From: Oceanimonas sp. GK1
Lineage (GTDB): Bacteria; Pseudomonadota; Gammaproteobacteria; Enterobacterales; Aeromonadaceae
Reading direction: 5' to 3'
Length of the DNA: 64,000 bases
Assembly: GCF_000243075.1 (NCBI RefSeq)
Contig: NC_016745.1
Span: forward strand, 2,869,001 to 2,933,000
Shown: piece by piece, positions 49,019 to 61,773 of the stretch
Layout: every line of letters begins with the position of its first letter
Numbering within the stretch: position 1 is the stretch's first letter
The notes under the pieces: generated by a model
Database searches by the model: none
What the model was told of the DNA's origin: nothing
The model's input: only the letters and a program-made list of their open reading frames with translations
Translations under genes and position numbers: made by a program

Positions 49019-50227
49019 ATGTGTTCGGAGTCGTCCTTGAAGACCATACTGCAACTTGTTGGAAGACAAAAACCGCTTTTTTGCAAGGATCTTACTGCCA
49101 ATGAACAAGCTTTGCTCGATTCTGTTCGAACTTCCCGTTTCCTCGTTCTCGGCGGTGCTGGCTCCATCGGCCAGGCGGTAACCAAAGAAATATTCAAGCG
49201 CAACCCGGTCAAACTGCATGTAGTCGACATCAGCGAGAACAACCTGACCGAGCTGGTGCGTGACATTCGCAGCAGCTTCGGTTACATCAATGGTGATTTT
49301 CGCACCTTTGCATTGGATATTGGCTCAGTCGAGTACGATGCCTTTTTCAAGGCGGACGGCGGATATGACTATATTCTGAATCTGTCCGCGCTCAAGCATG
49401 TACGTAGCGAAAAAGATCCCTACACCCTGATGCGGATGATCGATGTCAACGTGTTTAACACCGATAAGACTCTGCAACAAGCCATTGACGCCGGGGTGAA
49501 GAAATATTTTTGCGTATCCACCGATAAGGCAGCCAACCCGGTTAATATGATGGGGGCTTCCAAGCGTATTATGGAAATGTTCCTGATGCGCCGTAGTCTG
49601 GAAATTGATATTTCCACCGCTCGTTTTGCCAATGTTGCCTTTTCCGATGGCTCCTTGCTGCACAGCTTCAACCAGCGACTGGAAAAACGTCAGCCAATCG
49701 TGGCCCCGAATGATGTCCGCCGATACTTCGTAACGCCGCAGGAGTCTGGCGAGCTGTGCCTGATGTCATGCATCTTTGGTGAAAACCGGGATATTTTCTT
49801 CCCAAAGCTCAGTGAAGCATTACATCTGATCACCTTCGCCGATATCGCCATTAAATATCTGGAGCAAAAGGGACTAGAGCCGGTGCTGTGCAGCAGTGAG
49901 GAAGAGGCCCGCGAGCTGGCCAAAACCCTGCCGGACCAAGGCAAATGGCCCTGCCTGTTTACCGGCAGTGACACCACGGGCGAGAAGGACTTCGAGGAGT
50001 TCTTTACCGAGCAGGAAACCCTGGACATGGAACGCTTTGTCAATTTGGGGATCATCAAGAACGATCCTGTTTTTGATGCCGAACGTTTGCAGATGTTTGA
50101 GCGCCGTATCAGCGAAATGAAAGGTAATCTGGCCTGGAGTAAACAGGAGCTGGTAGAGCTCTTCTTTGAGATGATCCCCGATTTTGACCACAAGGAAACC
50201 GGCAAATATCTCGATGGTAAAATGTGA
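49019..50227 (+). CDS. legB: Nucleotide-sugar 4,6-dehydratase (LegB-type, polysaccharide biosynthesis SDR)
   Basis: A 402-residue extended SDR of the FlaA1/CapD group, expected to convert NDP-GlcNAc to its 4-keto-6-deoxy form. NAD motif VLGGAGSIGQAVTKEIFKR is near residue 45. The active-site stretch STDKAANPVNMMGASKR has Met where many SDRs have Tyr, as in long PglF/WbpM-type enzymes. The start at 49019 (MCSESSLKTILQLVGR) is chosen by similarity of layout to homologues; no good ribosome site is visible. First gene of the leg operon. Could also feed another 6-deoxy sugar, but the neighbours point to legionaminic acid. Confidence 0.82.
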   Translation: MCSESSLKTILQLVGRQKPLFCKDLTANEQALLDSVRTSRFLVLGGAGSIGQAVTKEIFKRNPVKLHVVDISENNLTELVRDIRSSFGYINGDFRTFALDIGSVEYDAFFKADGGYDYILNLSALKHVRSEKDPYTLMRMIDVNVFNTDKTLQQAIDAGVKKYFCVSTDKAANPVNMMGASKRIMEMFLMRRSLEIDISTARFANVAFSDGSLLHSFNQRLEKRQPIVAPNDVRRYFVTPQESGELCLMSCIFGENRDIFFPKLSEALHLITFADIAIKYLEQKGLEPVLCSSEEEARELAKTLPDQGKWPCLFTGSDTTGEKDFEEFFTEQETLDMERFVNLGIIKNDPVFDAERLQMFERRISEMKGNLAWSKQELVELFFEMIPDFDHKETGKYLDGKM

Positions 50228-50234
50228 GGTCACC

Positions 50235-51380
50235 GTGCATCAGCAACTAATCGACTTTATTCGGGATACTTACGCCACCAGCGATTTTATCCCGCTGCAT
50301 GCCCCTACCTTTGCCGGCAATGAAAAAGCCTATCTGGCCGACACCATCGACAGCACCTTTGTTTCCAGCGTGGGCAAATTCGTTGATGAATTTGAAGTGA
50401 AAGTGCGTGAGTTCACCAACACGGGTCGTGCGGTGGCCACCGTTAATGGCACCGCCGCGCTGCATGCTGCTCTGCACTTGGCCGGGGTACGGACGGGCGA
50501 TCTGGTGATCACCCAGGCGCTGACCTTTGTCGCCACCTGCAATGCTCTGCATCATATGGGCGCCAGGCCAGTGTTTGTTGATATTGAGCCCGATGCCTAT
50601 GGGCTCTGCCCGGTGGCCACGGCAACCTGGCTGGCGGAACATGCCGAGCTGGATAATGCCGGCGTTTGCCGCCATATAAACAGCGGCGCAGCTATCAAGG
50701 CCCTTATGCCCATGCATACTTTTGGTCATCCGGCCAGGCTGGATGAACTGATGGCGCTCTGCCAGCAGTGGAATCTTTGTCTTATAGAGGATGCTGCCGA
50801 AAGTCTGGGCTCTTTCTACAAGGGCCGGCACACCGGTACACTGGGTCGGTTCGGGGCGCTCAGTTTTAACGGCAACAAGGTGATCACCACCGGTGGTGGT
50901 GGCATGCTGCTGTGCCAGGATGCTGAAGACGGTGCCAGGGCCAAGCATGTGACGACCACCGCCAAGGTGCCGCATCCCTACGAGTTCTATCACGATGAAC
51001 CCGGCTTCAACTATCGTATGCCCAATCTCAATGCCGCCCTGGGCTGTGCTCAGATGGAGCGACTCAACACCATACTGGCGAGCAAGCGGCAGCTGGCTGC
51101 GCGCTATGCCGACTTTTTTCAGAGCACCGATTACCGTTTTATCAAAGAGCCGGCCTACGCCCGCTCCAACTATTGGCTGAATGCAGTGCTGTGCCCGAAT
51201 GTAGAAAGTCGCAATGCCTTGCTGGAAATCACCAATGCCCGGGGGGTGATGATACGTCCGGTATGGCAGTTGATGCACCGGCTGCCGATGTTTGCTGATG
51301 CACTGCGTGGAGACCTGGCTCACTCCGAATGGGCCGAGGCTCATTTGGTGAATCTGCCCAGCTCACCAACAGAGGCCTGA
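50235..51380 (+). CDS. legC: PLP-dependent aminotransferase (LegC)
   Basis: A 381-residue DegT/DnrJ/EryC1 aminotransferase that adds an amino group at C4 of the 4-keto sugar. It has TVNGTAALHAALHLAGV near 75 and a PLP-binding segment EDAAESLGSFYKGRHTGTLG. The Schiff-base Lys lies in SFNGNKVITTGGGG. The start is a GTG at 50235 with GAGGT just before it, eight bases after legB; longer frames run inside legB. Confidence 0.88.
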   Translation: MHQQLIDFIRDTYATSDFIPLHAPTFAGNEKAYLADTIDSTFVSSVGKFVDEFEVKVREFTNTGRAVATVNGTAALHAALHLAGVRTGDLVITQALTFVATCNALHHMGARPVFVDIEPDAYGLCPVATATWLAEHAELDNAGVCRHINSGAAIKALMPMHTFGHPARLDELMALCQQWNLCLIEDAAESLGSFYKGRHTGTLGRFGALSFNGNKVITTGGGGMLLCQDAEDGARAKHVTTTAKVPHPYEFYHDEPGFNYRMPNLNAALGCAQMERLNTILASKRQLAARYADFFQSTDYRFIKEPAYARSNYWLNAVLCPNVESRNALLEITNARGVMIRPVWQLMHRLPMFADALRGDLAHSEWAEAHLVNLPSSPTEA

Positions 51381-51381
51381 C

Positions 51382-52530
51382 ATGCGAAACATTGCGGTAT
51401 TTACCGGGACCCGGGCCGAATATGGATTGCTGTATTGGTTGCTGAAGGATATTCAGCAGGAACCAGAGCTGAGATTACAGTTGCTGGTGGCTGGTATGCA
51501 TTTCTCGCCAGAATTCGGCATGACTTACCAACAAATAGAAGCAGACGGCTTTCGTATCGACGAAAAAGTCGAAATGCTGCTGTCTTCCGATTCAGCAGTC
51601 GGCACGGCAAAAAGCATTGGTCTGGGCGTGATTGGCTTCGCAGATGCGCTGAGCCGCATGGCACCCGATGCGTTGGTGATCCTCGGGGACCGGTTTGAGG
51701 CACTGGCAGCGGCCCAGGCGGCGATGATCCTGCGCATTCCCGTTGCCCATATCCACGGGGGCGAAATCACCGAAGGTGCCTATGATGATGCCATTCGTCA
51801 CGCCATTACCAAGCTGAGCCTGCTGCATTTCACCTCTACTGCCGAGCACCGGCAGCGAGTGATCCAGCTGGGCGAACATCCTGACCGAGTACATAACGTG
51901 GGTGCCATTGGGCTTGACCATTTGCAGCGTAGCAACATGATGACGGTGGCCGAGCTGTCAACGTCATTAGGCTTTGCGCTTGAGCGCCCTTATTTTCTGG
52001 TGACCTATCACCCGGTGACATTAGCGTCCGAGCCCGCCAGAGCGTCATTTAAGCAGTTGCTAAAAGCCCTGGATTATTTTCCTGAGCATCAGGTTATTCT
52101 GACCTACCCCAATGCCGATGACGGTGGCCGTGACATTATTCCGCTGCTGGAAACCTATGCCAGTCAGCAAGCCAGCCGGGTGCTGGCGATCCCCTCTCTT
52201 GGGCAGCAGCGTTATCTGAGTGCGGTAAAGCACGCCGCCGCCGTGGTGGGGAATTCATCCAGTGGCCTGATTGAAGTGCCTTCATTTGGCGTGCCAACAG
52301 TAAACATTGGTGCTCGCCAGCGCGGTCGGCTGGCAGCAGACAGCGTCCTGCATTGCGACGCCATCACCCCTGCGATTGTTGACGCGCTGCAGGTGGCGCT
52401 GGCAACAGATGTGAGTCAGGTACGGAACCCGTACGGCCAGGGGAATACCAGTCAGTCCATTGTCAATACACTCAAGACGGCGGAGTTGTCAGTGATTAAA
52501 ACCTTCTACGATATCCACAAGGAAAGCTAG
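51382..52530 (+). CDS. legG: Hydrolysing NDP-sugar 2-epimerase (LegG/NeuC family)
   Basis: A 382-residue NeuC-family enzyme that inverts C2 and removes the nucleotide, yielding 2,4-diacetamido-2,4,6-trideoxy-mannose. It has an N-terminal FTGTRAEYGLLYWLL, GDRFEALAAAQAA, the HIHGGEITEGAYDDAIRHAI signature and C-terminal GNSSSGLIEVPSFG. It starts one base after the legC stop. A NeuC-like rather than a PseG-like enzyme argues for legionaminic over pseudaminic acid. Confidence 0.9.
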   Translation: MRNIAVFTGTRAEYGLLYWLLKDIQQEPELRLQLLVAGMHFSPEFGMTYQQIEADGFRIDEKVEMLLSSDSAVGTAKSIGLGVIGFADALSRMAPDALVILGDRFEALAAAQAAMILRIPVAHIHGGEITEGAYDDAIRHAITKLSLLHFTSTAEHRQRVIQLGEHPDRVHNVGAIGLDHLQRSNMMTVAELSTSLGFALERPYFLVTYHPVTLASEPARASFKQLLKALDYFPEHQVILTYPNADDGGRDIIPLLETYASQQASRVLAIPSLGQQRYLSAVKHAAAVVGNSSSGLIEVPSFGVPTVNIGARQRGRLAADSVLHCDAITPAIVDALQVALATDVSQVRNPYGQGNTSQSIVNTLKTAELSVIKTFYDIHKES

Positions 52531-52532
52531 GC

Positions 52533-53606
52533 ATGATCAAGATTATCGCGGAGGCGGGTGTTAATCATAACGGCAGTGCCGAGCTGGCGTTTAGGCTGGT
52601 GGAAGCAGCACACGCCGCCGGTGCCGATATCGTCAAGTTTCAGACGTTCAAAGCTAAAAATCTGGTCACCAGGACAGCACAGCAAGCAGAATACCAAACT
52701 CGTAATACCGGTGTTGCAGAGTCTCAGTTTGATATGCTCAGTCGGTTAGAGCTGGGCTTCGATACTCATAAAGCTCTGATTGCTCGTTGTCATGAGTTGG
52801 GCATCGAGTTTATGTCCACGGCGTTCGACTCCGAAAGCCTGATATTTCTGGTTAAAGAGCTCGGCCTGACCACCCTGAAAATTCCGTCTGGTGAGCTGAC
52901 CAATGCGCCCTTTGTACTTGAGCATGCTCGTACAGGCTGTGATCTGATTGTCTCTACCGGCATGGCAAGCCTGGCTGAAGTAGAAGCCACGCTGGGTGTT
53001 ATTGCCTTTGGGCTAACAGCGGACGAAGCAGCCTTCCCCAGTGAACAGGCCTTTACGGAAGCGTATGCCAGTGAAGCTGGCCAATCGGCACTGAAGCGCA
53101 GGGTGACGCTGCTGCACTGCACCACCGAATACCCGGCACCCATAAATGAAATCAACCTGCGGGCTATGCAGACCATGGCCACCGCCTTTGGGTTAACGCC
53201 GGGCTACTCCGATCACAGTGCAGGAATCACCATTCCGGTGGCGGCGGCGGCACTGGGCGCCCGTTTGATTGAAAAACACTTCACACTCGACAAAAGCATG
53301 GAGGGGCCGGATCACAAAGCCTCTCTGGAGCCCGATGAACTGGCCGCCATGGTGCAGGCGGTACGCGATGTGGAGCTGGCCCTTGGCAATGGCATCAAGG
53401 GGCCTCAACCCTCTGAAGTCAAGAACAAGGCTGTAGCACGCAAGAGCCTGGTGGCAGCGGCCCCCATCCGCACCGGTGAGCTGTTTACTGAGAATAATCT
53501 GGCGGTAAAACGCCCTGGCGATGGTCTTTCTCCCTATGGCTACTGGGCCTGGCTAGGGAAACCGGCAGGGCGCGATTATCAGGAAGGGGAGCTGATCCGT
53601 GACTAA
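52533..53606 (+). CDS. legI: Nonulosonic acid synthase (LegI/NeuB family)
   Basis: A 357-residue PEP-condensing synthase producing N,N'-diacetyllegionaminic acid. TIM-barrel motifs are IIAEAGVNHNGSAELAFRLV, KFQTFKAKNLV, LKIPSGELTN and HCTTEYPAP. The C-terminal SAF/antifreeze-like domain (KNKAVARKSLVAAAPIRTGE) covers about residues 290-350. It overlaps legH by eight bases. Confidence 0.93.
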   Translation: MIKIIAEAGVNHNGSAELAFRLVEAAHAAGADIVKFQTFKAKNLVTRTAQQAEYQTRNTGVAESQFDMLSRLELGFDTHKALIARCHELGIEFMSTAFDSESLIFLVKELGLTTLKIPSGELTNAPFVLEHARTGCDLIVSTGMASLAEVEATLGVIAFGLTADEAAFPSEQAFTEAYASEAGQSALKRRVTLLHCTTEYPAPINEINLRAMQTMATAFGLTPGYSDHSAGITIPVAAAALGARLIEKHFTLDKSMEGPDHKASLEPDELAAMVQAVRDVELALGNGIKGPQPSEVKNKAVARKSLVAAAPIRTGELFTENNLAVKRPGDGLSPYGYWAWLGKPAGRDYQEGELIRD

Positions 53607-54237
53607 GCCGCTGGTGATCCTGGGGGCTGGTGGCCATGCCGCCGGTCTTGCCGAGATCCTGAAAAAACAAGGACATATCCTGTTGGGCGTGGTATCGCCT
53701 CACCCGTTGGCTCCTCGTGGACCTCTGGCAGATGTGCCTCATATCAACGATGATGAAGCATTACTAGAGCAGTTCGGCCCGGAGCAGGCTGAACTGGTAA
53801 ACGGTGTGGGGGCCCTGCCAGGCCAAGACCTGAACTGGAGATTGTTTCAGCGCTTTACCGGCCTTGGATACCGTTTTGCATCAGTGATATCACCTCATGC
53901 CATCCTGTCCGAGTATGTCACCCTGGGACAGGGCGTTCAGATCATGGCCGGTGCGATTGTACAGGCAGGTGTGCAAATCGGTGGCAACACCCTGCTTAAC
54001 ACCGGTTGTATTGTTGAGCACGATTGTTGTATTGGTGCTCACAATCATCTGGCCCCAGGAGCAACATTAAGCGGTGGAGTAATCACTGGTGAACAGGTGC
54101 ATGTAGGAACTGGGGCCAATATTATTCAAGGGATAACCATCGGTAAGCATGCAACCATTGGTGCTGGCACAACTATTGCCAGAGATGTAATTCCTTACCA
54201 AAAGTTGATACCGGCACCAAGCCGTATCATTAGCTAA
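53599..54237 (+). CDS. legH: Sugar O/N-acetyltransferase (LegH/NeuD family)
   Basis: A 212-residue NeuD-type protein: an N-terminal nucleotide-sugar-binding fold (VILGAGGHAAGLAEILKKQG) and a C-terminal left-handed beta-helix of hexapeptide repeats (VQIGGNTLLNTGCIVEHDCC, IGKHATIGAGTTIARDV). The conserved EHDC has the catalytic His. It probably acetylates the 4-amino group. GTG start at 53599, with GGGGAG eight bases upstream. Confidence 0.88.
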   Translation: MTKPLVILGAGGHAAGLAEILKKQGHILLGVVSPHPLAPRGPLADVPHINDDEALLEQFGPEQAELVNGVGALPGQDLNWRLFQRFTGLGYRFASVISPHAILSEYVTLGQGVQIMAGAIVQAGVQIGGNTLLNTGCIVEHDCCIGAHNHLAPGATLSGGVITGEQVHVGTGANIIQGITIGKHATIGAGTTIARDVIPYQKLIPAPSRIIS

Positions 54238-54247
54238 GGGGTAACCT

Positions 54248-55294
54248 ATGGCCGAATGGAAAAGTATTGTTTTAGAACCCCATGCCACCATCCGCGATGC
54301 CATGAGAGTAATTGACCAAGGTGCACTGCGTATTGCCTTGGTCTGTGACGCACAGAAAAGATTGCAGGGCACGTTAACCGATGGCGATATTCGCCGTGGT
54401 TTACTCATCGACTGTAATATGGAAGACTCGGTTTTAAGAGTTATGAATAGCAATCCCAAGACCGTCAAAGTCAGTGATAGCAGAGAAAAACGACTATCAG
54501 TTATGAATAAACACGGTTTATTGTCACTTCCTATAATTAATGACCAGAACATTCTTGCTGGTCTTGAAACATTACAAAATGCTTTAATTCCAAAAGTACG
54601 TGACAATCCTGTATTTATCATGGCAGGTGGATTTGGCACCCGTTTGAGGCCGCTCACCGACTATTGCCCCAAACCTATGCTACGAGTAGGCGATAAACCT
54701 GTACTGGAACATTTAATTGAACGTTTCATCAGCCAGGGGTTTTATCGATTTTTTATATCTACCCACTTTATGCCAGAGATAATCCGTGATTATTTTGGTA
54801 ATGGCGAAGAGCTGGGTATCAACATCCAATATGTTCATGAAGAATCACCTCTGGGAACAGGTGGTGCACTGGGTTTGTTACCAGTTGATTTACCGGAATT
54901 ACCCTTAATCATGGTAAACGGCGATGTAATGACCAAGGTTGATTTTAATCATCTTCTTGCACACCACGAGCAACATACATTTGATGCAACCATATGTGTG
55001 CGGGAACTTGAACACCAAGTACCATTTGGTGTAATAGAAAGTAATGACTACCTGATTACTCGTATGGTGGAAAAGCCCACTTTTCGTTATCGTATCAATA
55101 CTGGCATTTACGTACTCAGTCCTGCCTGTGTGGCAGCAGTGGAGTACGGTACCAAAATAGATATGCCTTCCCTTCTTGAGCAGCGTTTAGCTCTCCACGA
55201 AAAGGTTGGTATCTATACCAGCCATGACTACTGGCTGGACATCGGAAGGATGGATGACTTTCAAAAGGCTCAGCAAGACATAAAAGGTTTCTAA
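54248..55294 (+). CDS. CBS-domain nucleotidyltransferase (PtmE-like, GDP-glucosamine route)
   Basis: A 348-residue protein with two N-terminal CBS repeats (LQGTLTDGDIRRGLL; GLLSLPIINDQNILAGLET) and a C-terminal sugar-1-phosphate nucleotidyltransferase (FIMAGGFGTRLRPLTDYCPKP near 120, LIMVNGDVMT near 220). This is the PtmE architecture, which in Campylobacter makes GDP-glucosamine for legionaminic acid. Its presence suggests a GDP-linked pathway here. From this gene onward, base composition turns AT-rich compared with legB-legH. Confidence 0.85.
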   Translation: MAEWKSIVLEPHATIRDAMRVIDQGALRIALVCDAQKRLQGTLTDGDIRRGLLIDCNMEDSVLRVMNSNPKTVKVSDSREKRLSVMNKHGLLSLPIINDQNILAGLETLQNALIPKVRDNPVFIMAGGFGTRLRPLTDYCPKPMLRVGDKPVLEHLIERFISQGFYRFFISTHFMPEIIRDYFGNGEELGINIQYVHEESPLGTGGALGLLPVDLPELPLIMVNGDVMTKVDFNHLLAHHEQHTFDATICVRELEHQVPFGVIESNDYLITRMVEKPTFRYRINTGIYVLSPACVAAVEYGTKIDMPSLLEQRLALHEKVGIYTSHDYWLDIGRMDDFQKAQQDIKGF

Positions 55295-55296
55295 TC

Positions 55297-55998
55297 ATGA
55301 ATATTGCCATTATCCCTGCCAGGGGCGGAAGTAAGCGTCTACCGAATAAAAATATAAAACTAATGGCTGGGAAGCCTATGATCTGTTGGACAATTGAAGC
55401 TGCGCTTACCTGCAATATATTTGATCACATTTTTGTAAGTACAGACAGTGAAGAAATTGCCAAAATAGCAATAGAGTCGGGTGCAGTAGTACCGTTTTTA
55501 AGGCCTGCTAGTCTTTCAAGTGATGAAGCCTCTACCTATGACGTCGTGTCTCATCTGATAGACTGGTTTGAATCAGAGCATGAAGAAAAGGTAAACACCA
55601 TCACCATTCTTCAACCAACATCACCATTAAGGACAGCTGAAGATATTAAAAATGTCTTCGGGATAATAAACAATCACACTGCCAACGCTGTTATCTCTAT
55701 ATGCCCATTAGAGTACCCACTTGAGTTCTGTAATACATTAAATAAAGGTAACACCATGAAAGACTTCATAAAGCCAGAGAACATCAAGCGCTCACAGTTA
55801 GTGAGGCCCGCATATAGAGTGAATGGCGCTATCTACTTAATGAAAAGAGAAATGATAAATAACGGTAAAAACATTTATAGCGAGTCTACATTACCCTATA
55901 TCATGAGTGCGAAATCATCAGTAGACATAGACACCCTAGATGATTTTGAGTATGCCGAGTATTTGATGAAGAAATCACTCGGCACACTGTACAAATAA
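55297..55998 (+). CDS. legF: CMP-legionaminic acid synthetase (LegF/NeuA family)
   Basis: A 233-residue cytidylyltransferase that activates the nonulosonic acid with CTP. Motifs are IIPARGGSKRLPNKNIKLMA at the N-terminus, TILQPTSPLRTAEDI and a terminal SVDIDTLDDFEYAEYLM. The start is two bases after the previous stop. The stop lies seven bases from the convergent glycosyltransferase stop, with no clear terminator between. Confidence 0.9.
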   Translation: MNIAIIPARGGSKRLPNKNIKLMAGKPMICWTIEAALTCNIFDHIFVSTDSEEIAKIAIESGAVVPFLRPASLSSDEASTYDVVSHLIDWFESEHEEKVNTITILQPTSPLRTAEDIKNVFGIINNHTANAVISICPLEYPLEFCNTLNKGNTMKDFIKPENIKRSQLVRPAYRVNGAIYLMKREMINNGKNIYSESTLPYIMSAKSSVDIDTLDDFEYAEYLMKKSLGTLYK

Positions 55999-56005
55999 TT
56001 TAGCA

Positions 56006-58087
56006 TCAAATATTGAGCAGCTTCCTGACACTATCCACAATACCATCAATGGCTTGAGCCCTTTTGGCACTGTTGTTTACCGGCAAACTGATATGAGGTG
56101 TCCCGGGATAATTAAGTGACTCTTTTACCAGCTCACCATTTTCTGGTAGATAATCGGCACCATAGATAACTGTTCTAGTCCCAACCGCTTCAGCCAAAAT
56201 AATTGGAGCAATATGAGCCCCTAAAACCAGATCAAGGTTAGATAACATGGCGGCAGTGTTCTCAAAATCATCTCTTTGATCAAGCTCATCAATGTTATAA
56301 ACTACTCTGCCAGTAAGTTTTTCAATTTTATCAAGCTCTTCACTACACTCAGCATACATGCAGTTAATGAATTCGACCTCAGGTAATTTTGAGATAACAA
56401 TAGCCATTTCATCAGCAGAAAGATAGTAAGTAGCTCTGGAGCCATAAACCAAGCCACTTCGCCAGGCAATTCCTACTCTGGGCCTATCTGTCGCTATTAT
56501 TGAATCAAGTTTTCTCTTCCACTTTTTCTTCAGAGAATGTTCAACCCAATAGTAGTCTTTATTGAACAAAGCGTGACCATAGGCTTGATAGTGCAGTGCT
56601 GGCAAGTCACCGGACAGCACAATCACATCAGCGTCAGCAAGTACAGAAGCATCCATATTTTTCAATGTACGTGCATTTTTTTCATTCATGGGAATAAATG
56701 AAATTTCAGGAAAAAGACGCTCGAAAGGTACTAACAAACGCTCTCTGCAGTAAGCTTTTACAATAGCACCTTGCTCTATTAGCCACTGATAATTGCTGGC
56801 AAAGTAAAGCTCATCACCAATACCTTGCTCTCTTAAAAGAAAAACTTTCTTTCCCGCTATGGGCTCACCATTCCAGATTCTTTTCTTGAAAGAGTCAAAG
56901 TTACTCTTGAATCTTAAGCTACGACCGCAAAGATACGCCTTATAAAAAGAATCTTTATCTCGAAGAGCAAGATAATAGAAATGTTTATTCCATTCATTTT
57001 CTTTATGAGAGGATATATATTTATCCAGGCTACAGCTAACTTCATATGACTTCCTGATCTCGCCAATATTCATATAAAAACGGACCAAATCAGCGGCAAT
57101 CTCAGTATCACGGGGCATCAGTTTAAAGAGAGTGAACAATTCGTTCGCTGCTGCAACAAGAGCATTTTTATCAAACCACTGCTTACTTTCATCCACTGAT
57201 TTATATCTGGCCAGCGCTTTATATTTTCTAAAGACAATGTCACTATCATCATCTTCAACTACTGCGGAGAAGTATTCATATGCTTTATGAAAGCTATCAT
57301 TTTTGTAATTAAAATATCCCAAGTATTTCTTAATCACATTGTCATCGGGGAATTTCTTTGATAGCTTTTCTAAATAGTAAATGAAAGCAGGAGTGCCATA
57401 ACTCTCTTCTATTACTTCCGCCAGAATATCCAAACAGTCGAAGAAACCTTGGCTTACAGCTTTATCGAGATAATGAAAAGCCTGTTCAAACTCTTCATTC
57501 TCTCTCAACACATATCCAAATAATGCATTGGCTCTGGCATTTCCTGAGTCTATCAGTAGTACACCATTCAATAATTTTGAGGCCTGGTCTCCTTTGTCTT
57601 GCTTAATCATCTTGGAGCAAGTGAATACAACTGAGTCGATAAGCTCGTTTGTTGATTCTATAGCCCATATATCGGACTCATTATTATCGCCTTCGGAAAG
57701 CTCGTACAGAGCTTCGTAGATTGAAGATAACCTTGCCAACACATGAATTTCTGCAGGGTGCGACTCTTGGAGTTTGAGGTAAAGAGGAAGTGCTGATTCG
57801 TAACATTGAAGATAGTAATAATTTTCTGCCTGAGATAACATAAAGTCTGAATTATCTGGAGAAAGAGAAAGCAGCTTTTCACCATACTCTACAGCCTTGC
57901 CAAAGTCTTTCATCTCCTGCAGCAATTTAACCAGGGTATGCAACAGCTCAATATTATTATTATCGATTTCAAGGAGTTGCTCAAAAACCACCAAGGCCCC
58001 ACTCAGGTTACCCTCGTGATAACAATGCAGCCCTTCATCGATAAGCTGATCGACTTTTTTGATATTTTCATTCATATTATGCTGCAT
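56006..58087 (-). CDS. TPR plus GT-B glycosyltransferase, candidate flagellin nonulosonic acid transferase (FlmG-like)
   Basis: A 693-residue protein. Residues 1-about 400 are TPR-like helical repeats (ALVVFEQLLEIDNNNIELLH, SALPLYLKLQESHP, AFHYLDKAVSQGF). The C-terminal 280 residues form a GT-B fold of the TPR-linked type: GKKVFLLREQGIGDELYFAS at 412, RPRVGIAWRSG near 535, and DFENTAAMLSNLDLVLGAHI near 606. This order resembles Caulobacter FlmG, whose TPR part binds flagellin and whose GT part adds nonulosonic acid. It is downstream of fliS in the flaG-fliD operon and convergent with legF. No Maf (DUF115) protein is in the window. AT-rich. Substrate is inferred. Confidence 0.75.
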   Translation of the reverse strand: MQHNMNENIKKVDQLIDEGLHCYHEGNLSGALVVFEQLLEIDNNNIELLHTLVKLLQEMKDFGKAVEYGEKLLSLSPDNSDFMLSQAENYYYLQCYESALPLYLKLQESHPAEIHVLARLSSIYEALYELSEGDNNESDIWAIESTNELIDSVVFTCSKMIKQDKGDQASKLLNGVLLIDSGNARANALFGYVLRENEEFEQAFHYLDKAVSQGFFDCLDILAEVIEESYGTPAFIYYLEKLSKKFPDDNVIKKYLGYFNYKNDSFHKAYEYFSAVVEDDDSDIVFRKYKALARYKSVDESKQWFDKNALVAAANELFTLFKLMPRDTEIAADLVRFYMNIGEIRKSYEVSCSLDKYISSHKENEWNKHFYYLALRDKDSFYKAYLCGRSLRFKSNFDSFKKRIWNGEPIAGKKVFLLREQGIGDELYFASNYQWLIEQGAIVKAYCRERLLVPFERLFPEISFIPMNEKNARTLKNMDASVLADADVIVLSGDLPALHYQAYGHALFNKDYYWVEHSLKKKWKRKLDSIIATDRPRVGIAWRSGLVYGSRATYYLSADEMAIVISKLPEVEFINCMYAECSEELDKIEKLTGRVVYNIDELDQRDDFENTAAMLSNLDLVLGAHIAPIILAEAVGTRTVIYGADYLPENGELVKESLNYPGTPHISLPVNNSAKRAQAIDGIVDSVRKLLNI

Positions 58088-58113
58088 TGACTATATCCTA
58101 CTTCATAAAATCG

Positions 58114-58500
58114 TTATTTCTGATACTCAACCGGGATGGAATCCCAACCCTCTTTTATACCCCTCAGTAAACTACTGACCGATTCCAAACGCTCAGCATC
58201 ATTGTTACTGTTAGCCTGAACCAGTTCATTCATCATAAATTCATAAAGATTCTCAAGATTGTTAGCTATCTCACCACCAGCTTCATGATCTAATGACATT
58301 CGCAGCTCAGCCAATATTAACAAAGTCGCAGTCAACAACTCACCACGCTCGGCATAGTCTTTATTTTCAATAGCCACTCGCGCCTTTGCCATACGCTCCA
58401 GTGCACCCGCCAGTAACATCTTTACAACCTGGTACGGGCTGGCTACTTGTTTTTGACTGTCCAACGCCACAGATTTGTATGCTTTCATTGAGCCACGCAT
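58114..58500 (-). CDS. fliS: Flagellin export chaperone FliS
   Basis: A 128-residue helical chaperone that binds the flagellin C-terminus. It begins MRGSMKAYKSVALDSQKQVA and has SPYQVVKMLLAGALERMAKA and the C-terminal NLYEFMMNELVQAN. The start at 58500 has AGAGGT six bases upstream; longer frames would overlap the preceding gene. It precedes the glycosyltransferase by 26 bases. Confidence 0.93.
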   Translation of the reverse strand: MRGSMKAYKSVALDSQKQVASPYQVVKMLLAGALERMAKARVAIENKDYAERGELLTATLLILAELRMSLDHEAGGEIANNLENLYEFMMNELVQANSNNDAERLESVSSLLRGIKEGWDSIPVEYQK

Positions 58501-58504
58501 AGCA

Positions 58505-58816
58505 TTACCTCTCATTATACTTAATACTATTATACGCCTTAACAAGACGCTTTCCTTTATTAATTTCTTTTAATTTATTACCTAGCTTATTCTGTAACTT
58601 CTCAGATTTATCTTTTAAATTTTTAGAGCGTTCAATTAACTTGCTTACATCAGATACAGGGATTGCACCAGATGTTATTAGAATATTCAACTCATCCAGG
58701 ATCCTGGCTCTGGATGAAAGCTCACTCTGAATTAGAGTCTCATCCAGCTCTTCTTCTTTATCCAGCTCCTGAACTAACCGCTCGTCAATCAGCTCTAAAT
58801 CCCTAAGCAAACTCAC
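58505..58816 (-). CDS. FliT-like small helical flagellar chaperone
   Basis: A 103-residue charged helical protein (MSLLRDLELIDERLVQELDK) with no clear sequence identity to E. coli FliT. Its place between fliD (four-base overlap) and fliS is where fliT, or flaI in Vibrio, occurs, so a FliD-export chaperone role is likely from context. It is AT-rich and lysine-rich at the C-terminus. Confidence 0.65.
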   Translation of the reverse strand: MSLLRDLELIDERLVQELDKEEELDETLIQSELSSRARILDELNILITSGAIPVSDVSKLIERSKNLKDKSEKLQNKLGNKLKEINKGKRLVKAYNSIKYNER

Positions 58817-60198
58817 TGGTTATCACCCATTCCTGGCATATTAGAAAAAGCAGCCATAACGGAATTCAACTGCTGATTCATTTTTGCAACCATCATATCC
58901 ATGGATGAAAACTGCTTATATACTCTCGCTTCAAAACCTGCCATATACTCCTCAAACTTATCGGCATCCGTCTCTAAGCGACGCATTTGTTGATTTAAGG
59001 ATTCATTTCTCTTGGTTAAAACACCATCTCGACCTGTGTAGCTATCAATTAGATCATTAAATTTATTGCTGATTCCGCTTTCGGATGAAAACAAAAAACC
59101 TACTTCATCGAAGTTTGCTGTTAGCTGTTCTTTCAGTACACTTTCATCTAGCTCTAAAGTGCCATCTTTTTTCGTTTTGACACCAAAATCATTCAGGCTT
59201 GTCATTGATCCTGATGCACCTGATACAGCTTCACTCAGCATGTCTCTCATTTTTGACTTGAGGCCACGGGTTGTGCTATCACCATTCAATGGGCCAGCCT
59301 TTTCACTTACAGCATTATATTCACTCAGGTTGTCAACAACGTTAATAACTTTATTATAGGCCGTTACAAATTCCTTGATGCTTTCCTCAACAGCCTTTTT
59401 ATCGTAACCTATGGTCAAGGTCGTATTTGGATTAGATCCCGTGGCATCATTTACTTTTTTAAGATCAAATGTAACATCGGCAATTGCATCTTTTATTTCA
59501 TTGGACTGACTGGTAACTACAGCGCCATCTATTGAAACCTTGGCATTTTTAGCAGCCTGAATCTCGTATGTTGTTCCAAGATTATTTAGGCTAAACCCAC
59601 CCTCACCATCATTGTTGCTGCTGGCTGCTACAGAGATTTTACTGTCTTCCCCGGTTTTATCAGAGAAATAGACTAATCGGGAACCAAGGTCATCGGTGAT
59701 GACAGTGGCTCGTACTCCTTTGTTATCTTCAGCGTTGTTGATGGCAGCCGCCACCTCTGCCAGGGTACTTTTTTCTTTATCTATATTGACGGTAAAAGAT
59801 TCGCTACCGACCTGCATGGTCAGACTGCCTGAGCCTAACGCCTTGTCCGCAGCTACAGCATCAGAGCCAAGCTTATGAGCCTGTGCCAACTGCATTACTT
59901 GTATAGAGTAGCTACCGGCCACGGCACTACTTCCAGCTCTGGCAGTAATATAATCATCCTTATCCAGCGTGACTGAGCGCTTTTGAAAGTCTCCATTATC
60001 ACCCAGTTTTTTCAGAGCACTATTAAAGCTATCAAGCGCACTTTTGATAGAGCCGTAGGAAGATAATTGAACATCAATAGTATCGGCACGTCGCGACAGC
60101 TGTTGATCCTTGGCCGCACGCTCACCGGCTACGGTTGCATCAACAAAGGCCTGAATTGGAAAACCGGAGCCTACGCCGGGTAACTTTAAATCAGCCAC
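58813..60198 (-). CDS. fliD: Flagellar filament cap protein FliD
   Basis: A 461-residue cap protein (HAP2) on which flagellin subunits fold. It has the N-terminal LKLPGVGSGFPIQAFVDATV, TLDKDDYITARAGSSAVAGS, and a C-terminal coiled coil (LNQQMRRLETDADKFEEYMA, then MDMMVAKMNQQLNSVMA). Length is in the usual range. It lies eleven bases after flaG. Confidence 0.96.
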   Translation of the reverse strand: MADLKLPGVGSGFPIQAFVDATVAGERAAKDQQLSRRADTIDVQLSSYGSIKSALDSFNSALKKLGDNGDFQKRSVTLDKDDYITARAGSSAVAGSYSIQVMQLAQAHKLGSDAVAADKALGSGSLTMQVGSESFTVNIDKEKSTLAEVAAAINNAEDNKGVRATVITDDLGSRLVYFSDKTGEDSKISVAASSNNDGEGGFSLNNLGTTYEIQAAKNAKVSIDGAVVTSQSNEIKDAIADVTFDLKKVNDATGSNPNTTLTIGYDKKAVEESIKEFVTAYNKVINVVDNLSEYNAVSEKAGPLNGDSTTRGLKSKMRDMLSEAVSGASGSMTSLNDFGVKTKKDGTLELDESVLKEQLTANFDEVGFLFSSESGISNKFNDLIDSYTGRDGVLTKRNESLNQQMRRLETDADKFEEYMAGFEARVYKQFSSMDMMVAKMNQQLNSVMAAFSNMPGMGDNQ

Positions 60199-60209: not shown

Positions 60210-60587
60210 CTATGCTTTGGTATCAATCAAGCCCCTGCTTGCTTCACTCAGACGGGTGATCACATCCAGCAGTTCTTCCGATGGGATCTGACGAACCACA
60301 TCACCAGTATCGCTGTCTAGCACAGTCACTATATGCCGGCCGGAGTCTTCGTCTACTCTGAATTTGAGGCCACGGTTAAAAGTACTGACAAATGACTCAA
60401 CCTGCTCTGCCATCTCTTCCAGTTGCTTAGCCGTCAGTTCAGTTTCCTGAGGTTTGCTCACCCCTTGTACTGCCTGGGCGGTTTGAGTAACTTCGTTACC
60501 GACAGGTTTAGTTGCCACAGGAAGCTGTTTATTTAGTGCATCAGCTGTTGTGGTTTGCACCCGTTGGGAAGGGATATGCGTGTTCAT
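60210..60587 (-). CDS. flaG: Flagellar protein FlaG
   Basis: A 125-residue FlaG-family protein that influences filament length in Vibrio, Campylobacter and Aeromonas. The N-terminal 55 residues are polar and disordered; the C-terminal domain is GLKFRVDEDSGRHIVTVLDS, then VVRQIPSEELLDVITRL. It is first in flaG-fliD-fliT-fliS-GT. Confidence 0.93.
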   Translation of the reverse strand: MNTHIPSQRVQTTTADALNKQLPVATKPVGNEVTQTAQAVQGVSKPQETELTAKQLEEMAEQVESFVSTFNRGLKFRVDEDSGRHIVTVLDSDTGDVVRQIPSEELLDVITRLSEASRGLIDTKA

Positions 60588-60615: not shown

Positions 60616-60664
60616 CGCCGTTCAGCTTAACGACCTATTATCTATGGCATTAAGCTCAACGGCG
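60616..60664. repeat. Long inverted repeat upstream of flaG
   Basis: Arms CGCCGTTCAGCTTAA (60616-60630) and TTAAGCTCAACGGCG (60650-60664) pair at 14 of 15 positions around a 19-base loop. It overlaps the predicted sigma-28 promoter of flaG. Confidence 0.75.
60627..60653 (-). promoter_or_regulatory. Possible sigma-28 promoter of flaG
   Basis: On the minus strand TTAA, 15-bp spacer, GTCGTTAA: 3 of 4 and 6 of 8 matches to TAAA-N15-GCCGATAA. About 40 bases before the flaG ATG. Confidence 0.4.
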
Positions 60665-60700: not shown

Positions 60701-61519
60701 TTAGCCCAGCAGAGACAGGGCAGCCTGCGGAATTTGCTTGGCCTGAGCCAGAATGGAAGTACCGGCCTGCTGCAGAATCTGCTGTTTGGTCAGGTTAACG
60801 GTTTCGGCGGCAAAGTCCACATCCTTGATACGGCTCATACCGGCTGCAGCATTTTCCCGAATGTTGGCCAGGTTGTTGATGGTGCTGTCCATCCGGTTTT
60901 GGAATGAGCCCAGCTTGGCGCGTTGTGAATCAATGGTGCCAATCGCATTATCAATCAATGAAATAGCACTACCAGCCGCACTGTTATCAGCGACAGTAAT
61001 CGTTTTTACTATCAATGCACTAGCATCCAAGGCGTCGATGCTCAAGCTTACGGTTTCGCCTTCATTAGCACCGACCTGAAAAATTTTACCGGCGAAGGAG
61101 CCGTTCAGCAGGTTCTGGCCACCAAAGGTGGTCTTTTCTGAAATCCGATCCAGCTCCGCTTTCAATTGGGTCAATTCTTCCGAAATTGCTTCTCGGTCTT
61201 TAGTGTTGTTTGAATCGTTAGCACCCTGCACAGCCAGATCCCGCATCCGCTGCAGAATATTGGTGGACTCATCCAGTGCACCTTCAGCGGTTTGCGCCAG
61301 AGAAATACCGTCCTGAGCGTTTTTAATCGCCACCCCCAAGCCACGAACCTGAGAGTTCAGACGGTTGGAGATTTGCAGGCCGGCCGCGTCGTCCTTGGCG
61401 GAGTTGATGCGGCTACCGGTGGACAAACGCTCCATGGAGGTAGCCAGGGCGTTGGAAGACTTGTTCAGGTTGCGCTGGGCACCCATTGCAGTGACGTTAG
61501 TGTTGACTGTAATCGCCAT
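60701..61519 (-). CDS. fliC: Flagellin FliC (compact, D0/D1 only)
   Basis: A 272-residue flagellin, near the minimum for the family. The N-terminal D0/D1 ([40 protein letters not shown]) and C-terminal helix ([20 protein letters not shown]) are complete. The central region is only about 50 residues, so outer D2/D3 domains are absent. It holds several Ser/Thr (for example NSAAGSAIS, near 180) that could carry glycan. It is monocistronic, with a perfect-type sigma-28 promoter and a terminator. Confidence 0.97.
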
Positions 61520-61578: not shown

Positions 61579-61605
61579 GTATCGGCGAGGTTTTCGGCTT
61601 CTTTA
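61579..61605 (-). promoter_or_regulatory. Sigma-28 (FliA) promoter of fliC
   Basis: On the minus strand TAAA, 15-bp spacer, GCCGATAC against TAAA-N15-GCCGATAA: one mismatch. It lies 60 bases before the fliC ATG. Confidence 0.92.
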
Positions 61606-61773
61606 GCGTTTTTTCGCTGTGTTCTGACCAGTACCACCCTGCCTTTCATAAGGGCTATCGGCCTCGTTTGACCAAGCTTTAGAGTGTTTTTTGGTAAGGG
61701 GAATTATTGCCGCTTCGCGGCAAGTCGCGGGCATTCGCCCGCATGCCCCCCCTTCGCGGGGGTGACGTCAGGT

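Follow-up and report, generated by a model that had tools for sequence, protein, structure and literature searches.

How is a nonulosonic acid attached to flagellin when the genome yields no Maf protein? The question is raised by a locus of Oceanimonas sp. GK1 in which the gene of a 693-residue protein is placed between a flagellar gene cluster and an operon for legionaminic acid (Leg), a bacterial sugar that resembles sialic acid. The window referred to below is the whole stretch of 64,000 nucleotides that was analysed (NC_016745.1), and coordinates are given in its numbering. An original prediction had proposed that the protein transfers the sugar to flagellin independently of Maf, and the sequence comparisons made in the current analysis support that reading. 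We consider the protein, with a probability of about 0.75, to be a Maf-independent flagellin nonulosonic acid transferase of the FlmG class that would use CMP-Leg, in a lineage where the enzyme is retained and its sugar exchanged. Its donor, acceptor and catalysis are what we infer from sequence.

A two-part protein between flagellar and sugar genes

The gene (56006..58087, minus strand) is an open reading frame present in a single copy in the genome. The two-part plan read earlier from its product is upheld, with an N-terminal TPR half (residues ~1-390) and a C-terminal glycosyltransferase (GT) half (~396-693) that belongs to the GT family of proteins encoded in flmG context. Residues ~15-210 are matched by Pfam TPR models, and the matches of the whole protein to solved structures are confined to the TPR half. 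In the C-terminal half no Pfam model is found at E<=0.1, GT9 included; a whole-length GT9 domain is absent from the protein at this threshold, as is the MptE-like/Maf domain (PF01973) in the Pfam search. A profile of 38 GT halves gave no match to solved structures.

The GT half is alignable with homologues of Gamma-, Beta- and Alphaproteobacteria, the residues E420, Q421, G422, G424, D425, W542 and Y578 being invariant in 44 rows. In hhalign comparisons it is matched in its C-terminal part by a GT9 heptosyltransferase profile of four rows (probability 94.7, E 6e-8, 48 columns), while control profiles of two to three rows for GT4, GT8 and Maf each have a probability below 1 (Maf 0.3). Weak Pfam matches to GT9 are seen in 5 of 38 members of the GT family, the best with an E-value of 0.0027. 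On family membership and this remote link the C-terminal domain is predicted to be a glycosyltransferase, the GT-B label leaning on the remote 48-column match. A match to an LPS heptosyltransferase had been named beforehand as an argument against transfer to flagellin. Such a link does exist, but it extends over the family as a whole, with the members encoded in flmG context, and therefore does not discriminate between flagellin and LPS; it is compatible with a GT-B fold and alone would be no pointer to LPS. The GT9 LPS heptosyltransferases (WaaC, WaaF, WaaQ and WaaU) have another genomic context and no whole-length match to the window protein. They have no TPR half, and the donor of the known GT9 members is ADP-heptose. 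Ile626, in a loop aligned with a GT9 loop, was considered as an unusual residue and rejected, as Ile, Val, Met or Leu occupies this place in 58 of 172 GT domains, with many Azospirillum copies among them. The same GT domain is also encoded in two phage genomes, MW980061 (24146-24877) and MW202512 (23714-24418), and PHROG family 36377, of unknown function, matches all the 38 GT halves.

The flagellar genes are read in one direction in the order fliC-flaG-fliD-fliT-fliS, and the transferase gene follows 26 bases after fliS. The polar flagellin gene fliC (60701..61519, minus strand; Pfam Flagellin_N and Flagellin_C) encodes a protein of 272 residues that is the presumed acceptor. It is followed on the same strand by flaG (60210..60587; Pfam FlaG), the filament cap gene fliD (58813..60198; Pfam FliD_N and FliD_C), a fliT-like chaperone gene (58505..58816) assigned from its position and a weak FliT match below the cut-off (E 0.068), and the flagellin chaperone gene fliS (58114..58545; Pfam FliS, E 7.6e-35), the true start of which may fall within the listed reading frame. 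The position of the transferase gene as the last of this series, noted in the original prediction, is thus confirmed by Pfam for flaG, fliD and fliS and weakly for fliT. Two FliA-like promoter sites are present upstream of fliC (61579-61681; 0 of 200 shuffles as good) and another upstream of flaG (60627-60652; 1 of 200), with coordinates computed from the offsets of the promoter scan. Upstream of legB and of the flmG-like gene there is no FliA or sigma-54 promoter signal above that of the shuffles. By inspection, the reading frames between 40 and 64 kb are flagellar genes, Leg genes and LigA, ten of them tested against Pfam; the gene names fliE-I, flrA-C and ligA are those we presume for the window. 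Elsewhere the genome carries a second, probably lateral-type flagellar locus (L091, G000:C1:3020001-3040000) with a flagellin of 283 residues (trimmed) that is 44% identical and could possibly be a second acceptor.

On the other side lies a run of seven genes on the plus strand, from legB-like to legF-like, which constitutes a complete Leg operon and ends (55998) 7 bases from the convergent transferase gene, just as had been described. The legB-like dehydratase gene (49019..50227; Pfam Polysacc_synt_2) probably starts with the ATG at 49019 (402 residues) and not at the listed 48872. It is followed by legC, an aminotransferase gene (50184..51380; NCBIfam LegC family, 519.4 bits against a cut-off of 420), legG for a NeuC-type epimerase (51382..52530; NeuC_NnaA, 477.2 against 235.9), legI for a NeuB-type synthase (52533..53606; NeuB_NnaB, 476.5 against 399.65) and a legH-like gene for a NeuD/PglB-type acetyltransferase (53599..54237; NeuD_NnaD, 199.7 against 160.8). 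These four are over the NCBIfam cut-offs, LegI is under that of PseI (252.8 against 340.25), and legI encodes the only strong NeuB of the genome (protein query, E<=1e-10; PF03102, E<=1e-40), so that the sugar-supply operon postulated for the transferase is borne out. The last two genes encode a sugar nucleotidyltransferase (54248..55294), matched by nucleotidyltransferase models all under cut-off and called ptmE-like after Table 5 of PMC4481668, and a legF-like CMP-nonulosonate synthetase (55297..55998) with 202.2 bits for NCBIfam PseF against a cut-off of 205.7. For LegB, PtmE and LegF the assignment follows domain content, gene position and resemblance to Leg operons elsewhere rather than a curated Leg model. 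The legF-like product is 36% identical to the PseF of G009 (see below), 46-57% to its counterparts in six Leg operons of the family and 31% to that in a seventh, and 34-40% to those of G242, Solimicrobium and Photobacterium jeanii. With its score just below the PseF cut-off no curated model calls it Leg-type, and it is considered probably Leg-type mainly from the company of its operon.

Orthologues in the genus and their paired sugar

The genus set comprises 23 genomes, including those of Oceanimonas sp. CHS3-5 (G009) and Zobellella iuensis (G020). No Maf (PF01973) was found in any of the 23, the genome of the window included, and the same search, applied to 14 genomes from sister genera, identified Maf in nine of them. 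A profile built from the Maf proteins of three relatives gave the same counts, 0 of 23 and 9 of 14. The earlier remark that Maf is absent here therefore extends, in a genome-wide search with two profiles, to the entire genus set.

Full-length relatives of the transferase are encoded in three of the 23 genomes, namely the window's, G009 and G020, with fragments in G017. In G009 and G020 the gene again comes after fliC-flaG-fliD-fliT-fliS, and the neighbour survey suggested by the original prediction thus finds orthologues in the same flagellar position in other species. In all the three the transferase is faced by a nonulosonic acid operon, which is for Leg in the window and for a stereoisomer of Leg, pseudaminic acid (Pse), in the other two, where PseI and PseC are over cut-off in both and PseG and PseF also in G009. 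In G020 the gene next to the transferase, in the same direction, encodes 316 residues with no Pfam match, and two more genes are placed ahead of PseI. As two congeners have the orthologue facing a Pse operon, the Leg pairing in the window looks like a swap. From other congeners 16 regions were taken, 14 of them centred on a polar-type fliD; gene calling gave nothing Leg- or Pse-like around the flagellin cluster, with pse-like fragments in G017. The latter has a decayed system (L064, G017:C1:1284001-1304000), in which pieces of pse-like genes precede the flagellin gene and fliS is followed by a TPR remnant, at a place with transposase and integrase-core genes.

FliD is 72% identical in all three pairs of the trio. 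The transferases of G009 and G020 share 54% identity with each other and 42-48% with that of the window, the largest gap being in the N-lobe of the GT half, where the window protein has 38-39% identity to the Pse-paired pair against 51% within the pair. Their flagellins are 84% identical, and 78-79% to that of the window. The genes from ptmE-like through fliD (54248-60198) have a G+C content of 0.36-0.43 against 0.60 for the window, and the flmG genes of G009 and G020 one of 0.35, which suggests an acquired or exchanged segment. Polar flagellins of the genus (60701-61519 in the window, and loci L058, L061, L064 and L075-L088) have 272-273 residues in the three species with the transferase and 313-860 in the 15 examined that are without an intact one; the short flagellin and the transferase are possibly one event in the genus. 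Short flagellin as a general correlate of the enzyme was rejected, since it is true in the genus and fails in Vibrionaceae, where flagellins mostly have 370-405 residues in the presence of the enzyme.

Congeners that have no transferase also carry Leg operons, the genes of which reach 95% identity to those of the window. The operons of G021, G010 and G015 adjoin Wzx-type flippases, which indicates that Leg can serve surface polysaccharide; that of G002 adjoins a sub-threshold flippase, and G001 was outside the test. The Leg cassette of the window may derive from a polysaccharide-type Leg locus like those of the congeners.

The wider family and its co-occurrence with sugar synthesis

Searches with the GT-half profile (E<=1e-8) identified homologues in the order (26 of 394 genomes) and in the phylum (68 of 398). 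A flagellin gene adjoins the homologue, and no sugar operon lies within 10 kb, in 15 loci from the genera Enterovibrio, Grimontia and Salinivibrio and from Photobacterium jeanii. The protein has 698-714 residues in 13 of these loci, 568 as called in L152, and is split in L159; on its other flank are flgL-like and flgK genes, as checked by Pfam in L151. NeuB is present in each of the 14 Vibrionaceae genomes tested. By BLAST typing, not by curated models, 13 of them have Pse-type genes at a separate place, and P. jeanii has a Leg operon. The 2.1-Mb genome of Candidatus Enterovibrio luxaltus has kept a six-gene Pse-type run. The Leg operon of P. jeanii lies away from the transferase, adjoining a GT4-type transferase and a UDP-sugar dehydrogenase, so that Leg pairing there is by genome only. 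In ten Vibrionaceae regions (L244, L246-L249, L253-L255, L258 and L259) genes of ~200, 245, 257 and 210 residues, by size like his genes, precede the Pse genes.

Family f8 has two loci in which the transferase and a sugar operon are in line and divergent from flagellin; the operon is for Leg in G242 and for Pse in G281. Two copies are present in Solimicrobium silvestre, a betaproteobacterium, where they separate a Leg operon from fliC-flaG-fliD-fliS. The alphaproteobacterial members adjoin FlbT-, FlaF- and flagellin-like genes (BLAST), FlbT and FlaF being confirmed by Pfam in L233. The family profile matches proteins in flmG context (L162, L164, L223, L231-L233 and others), which agrees with the FlmG-like plan proposed at the outset; they are on other branches than the window protein in a tree of 63 rows. 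The window protein shares its GT family with them, and the tree gives no sign that they are its nearest orthologues. The GT half of the window protein is 22-29% identical to those of the flmG-context members, with L223 (597 residues, FlbT/FlaF-like neighbours) serving as a stand-in for the Caulobacter FlmG sequence. FlmG-like proteins of 1109-1992 residues, some with two GT domains, were observed in L217, L170, L173 and L174, and in the last three the long gene comes after an FlbT-like gene (32-34% by BLAST).

A clade of 17 rows (SH-aLRT 95) in the tree of 63 GT domains unites the Vibrionaceae group and the f8/f4 group with G046 and the window trio. Its branch was kept in a more careful tree of these rows and three outgroup rows (96/96). 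At least three changes of the paired sugar between Leg and Pse are counted within this gammaproteobacterial clade, one of them (P. jeanii) judged by genome, and a single Leg clade is rejected among the 17 rows (p-AU 1.5e-9), with groups named after inspection of the first tree. No alignment column separates five Leg-paired from 19 Pse-paired rows as donor-specific. Among the gammaproteobacterial rows alone nine columns are disjoint, within the 0-10 of eight control triples, and none has one residue common to the Leg rows.

Within 10 kb of 74 named homologue loci, flagellin or FlbT/FlaF is encoded in 48, a nonulosonic acid gene in only 15 and neither in 22; the genes are longest-frame calls typed by BLAST against those of the window, G009 and L233, by which distant flagellins and sugar genes can be missed. 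The 22 loci indicate that the family is wider than flagellin glycosylation and that part of it probably does something else. NeuB is encoded in each of 37 hand-picked genomes with a homologue, 14 taken via named loci and 23 from the G-numbered set, unlinked cases included; a Maf was found in six of these and not in the other 31. Among the 398 phylum genomes, flagellated or not and with relatedness ignored, NeuB (E<=1e-40) is present in 148, distributed as 56 of 68 with a homologue (E<=1e-8) against 92 of 330 without. For homologues of at least 70 bits, a threshold chosen after inspection of the list, the counts are 26 of 28 against 122 of 370. Two strong matches, G466 and G548, are among the 12 of the 68 genomes that have no NeuB at this E-value. 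The 148 NeuB genomes have a homologue only in 25 cases, Maf only in 41, both in 31 and neither in 51, and Maf and a homologue occur together in 32 of the 398. Maf (PF01973) and FlmG-like proteins would have the same job, NeuB being present in 72 of 75 genomes with Maf and in 56 of 68 with the FlmG-like protein, whereas no sequence relation is seen between Maf and the window protein. In L239 (G320) a Maf-like and a short FlmG-like protein (468 residues) are encoded by neighbouring genes, near fliC and together with pse-like genes, and are possibly both transferases of one system.

Known systems, alternative readings and meaning

The name flbA we take to be equivalent to flmG. A unit of flaF, flbT and flbA-flaG is named in the title of a reference of the FlmG paper (PMC7591256), and the loci of the alphaproteobacterial members match it. 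FlmG of Caulobacter crescentus (CCNA_01524; 596 residues) has a TPR N-half and a GT-B C-half, and no Maf is encoded in that genome, according to the same paper (eLife 2020). The window protein shares with it the two-part plan, the absence of Maf from the genome and the presence of genes for nonulosonic acid synthesis. Caulobacter FlmG is, however, linked with Pse, whereas the window protein is paired with Leg, gammaproteobacterial, and encoded after fliS beside its own sugar operon. As the only strong NeuB is Leg-type and two orthologues are Pse-paired, the protein has been filed as a variant of the FlmG class. A Leg-paired or gammaproteobacterial FlmG was not found in the FlmG literature searched, including the accessible parts of PMC7591256, PMC11339370 and PMC12645811, though the 2022 review of Kint, Unay and Viollier may report such members; nor did the literature searched yield biochemical data on a gammaproteobacterial member of the family. 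The class is already known, and the features of the variant are the Leg pairing, the gammaproteobacterial host and the repeated exchange of the paired sugar.

A similar case has been described in Plesiomonas shigelloides 302-73. According to the available part of PMC4481668, its polar flagella as well as its lateral ones carry a Leg derivative, the formation of flagella requires the Leg genes, and the ions in the mass spectra are typical of nonulosonic acids, for example Pse or Leg. A protein Gt of 691 residues, filed there as a flagellar frame, is encoded between the Leg genes and flgL, and the homologues listed for it are proteins of Azospirillum and Bradyrhizobium. Azospirillum loci belong to the GT family of the window protein. 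Gt is likened to the latter by description, not by sequence, from similar size and adjacency to Leg genes; Leg on the flagella together with Gt beside Leg genes would be as the FlmG-class reading predicts. The same portion of PMC4481668, which yielded no functional test of Gt, describes in the lateral locus a gene named maf-5 that bears minimal similarity to Maf-5.

Other readings of the locus have been considered. The transferase may act on flagellin with another donor, such as a neutral sugar, the Leg operon feeding LPS or capsule and its adjacency being incidental. Such a division of labour would be in keeping with the Wzx-type flippases beside the Leg operons of three congeners, the family members with no nonulosonic acid genes nearby and the remote GT9 likeness, yet we consider it unlikely: an operon for one or the other of two such sugars faces the gene in each of three species, NeuB accompanies the homologue in 37 of 37 picked genomes even when unlinked, Candidatus Enterovibrio luxaltus included, and the frames at 40-64 kb have been read as flagellar, Leg and LigA. 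That the protein is instead a legionaminyl transferase of LPS or capsule, found by chance in a flagellar locus, might be suggested by the same GT9 link and by the polysaccharide-type setting of the congener Leg operons. We regard this as highly improbable, given the TPR half, the place after fliS in three species and next to flagellin in 15 Vibrionaceae loci, and the lack of the protein in the Leg-bearing congeners that have Wzx-type neighbours.

We see an equally slight chance that the protein only binds flagellin as an accessory factor, or is an enzyme that has lost its activity, with Leg added by an unknown transferase encoded elsewhere. Its divergence from the Pse-paired pair, which is greatest in the N-lobe of the GT half, could be read in that way, but the invariant motifs of the family are retained and no Maf was found to take over the task.

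The preferred reading is therefore that of a FlmG-class nonulosonic acid transferase. Its TPR half, by analogy with FlmG, would bind newly made flagellin in the cytoplasm; the adjacent operon would supply CMP-Leg; and the GT half would transfer Leg from it to Ser/Thr residues of the 272-residue polar flagellin before export, the FlmG-like protein taking the place of Maf. The transferase would be retained in the flagellar locus as the sugar pathway is exchanged between Pse and Leg, a pairing seen in the genomes from which the use of the sugar is presumed. We would give even odds to a broader proposal, in which the transfer of nonulosonic acid to flagellin is the task of FlmG-type enzymes, and not of Maf, across a broad lineage of Gammaproteobacteria (the Oceanimonas/Zobellella group, Enterovibrio, Grimontia, Salinivibrio, Photobacterium jeanii and probably Plesiomonas), the donor having been switched between the stereoisomers Pse and Leg two or three times and an exchange of cassettes giving the flagellum a new sugar while the enzyme is retained.

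The question of what lets a flagellin transferase distinguish Pse from Leg could be approached with the sister enzymes of the genus. These are 42-48% identical, are placed in the same locus with flagellins 78-79% identical, are paired with different sugars and offer a natural swap experiment, and the sugar choice of FlmG-type enzymes is directly testable through such Leg- and Pse-paired relatives. The finding may also name the enzyme for flagella reported with Leg where no clear Maf has been described, and the absence of Maf should not be taken as absence of nonulosonic acid from flagellin.
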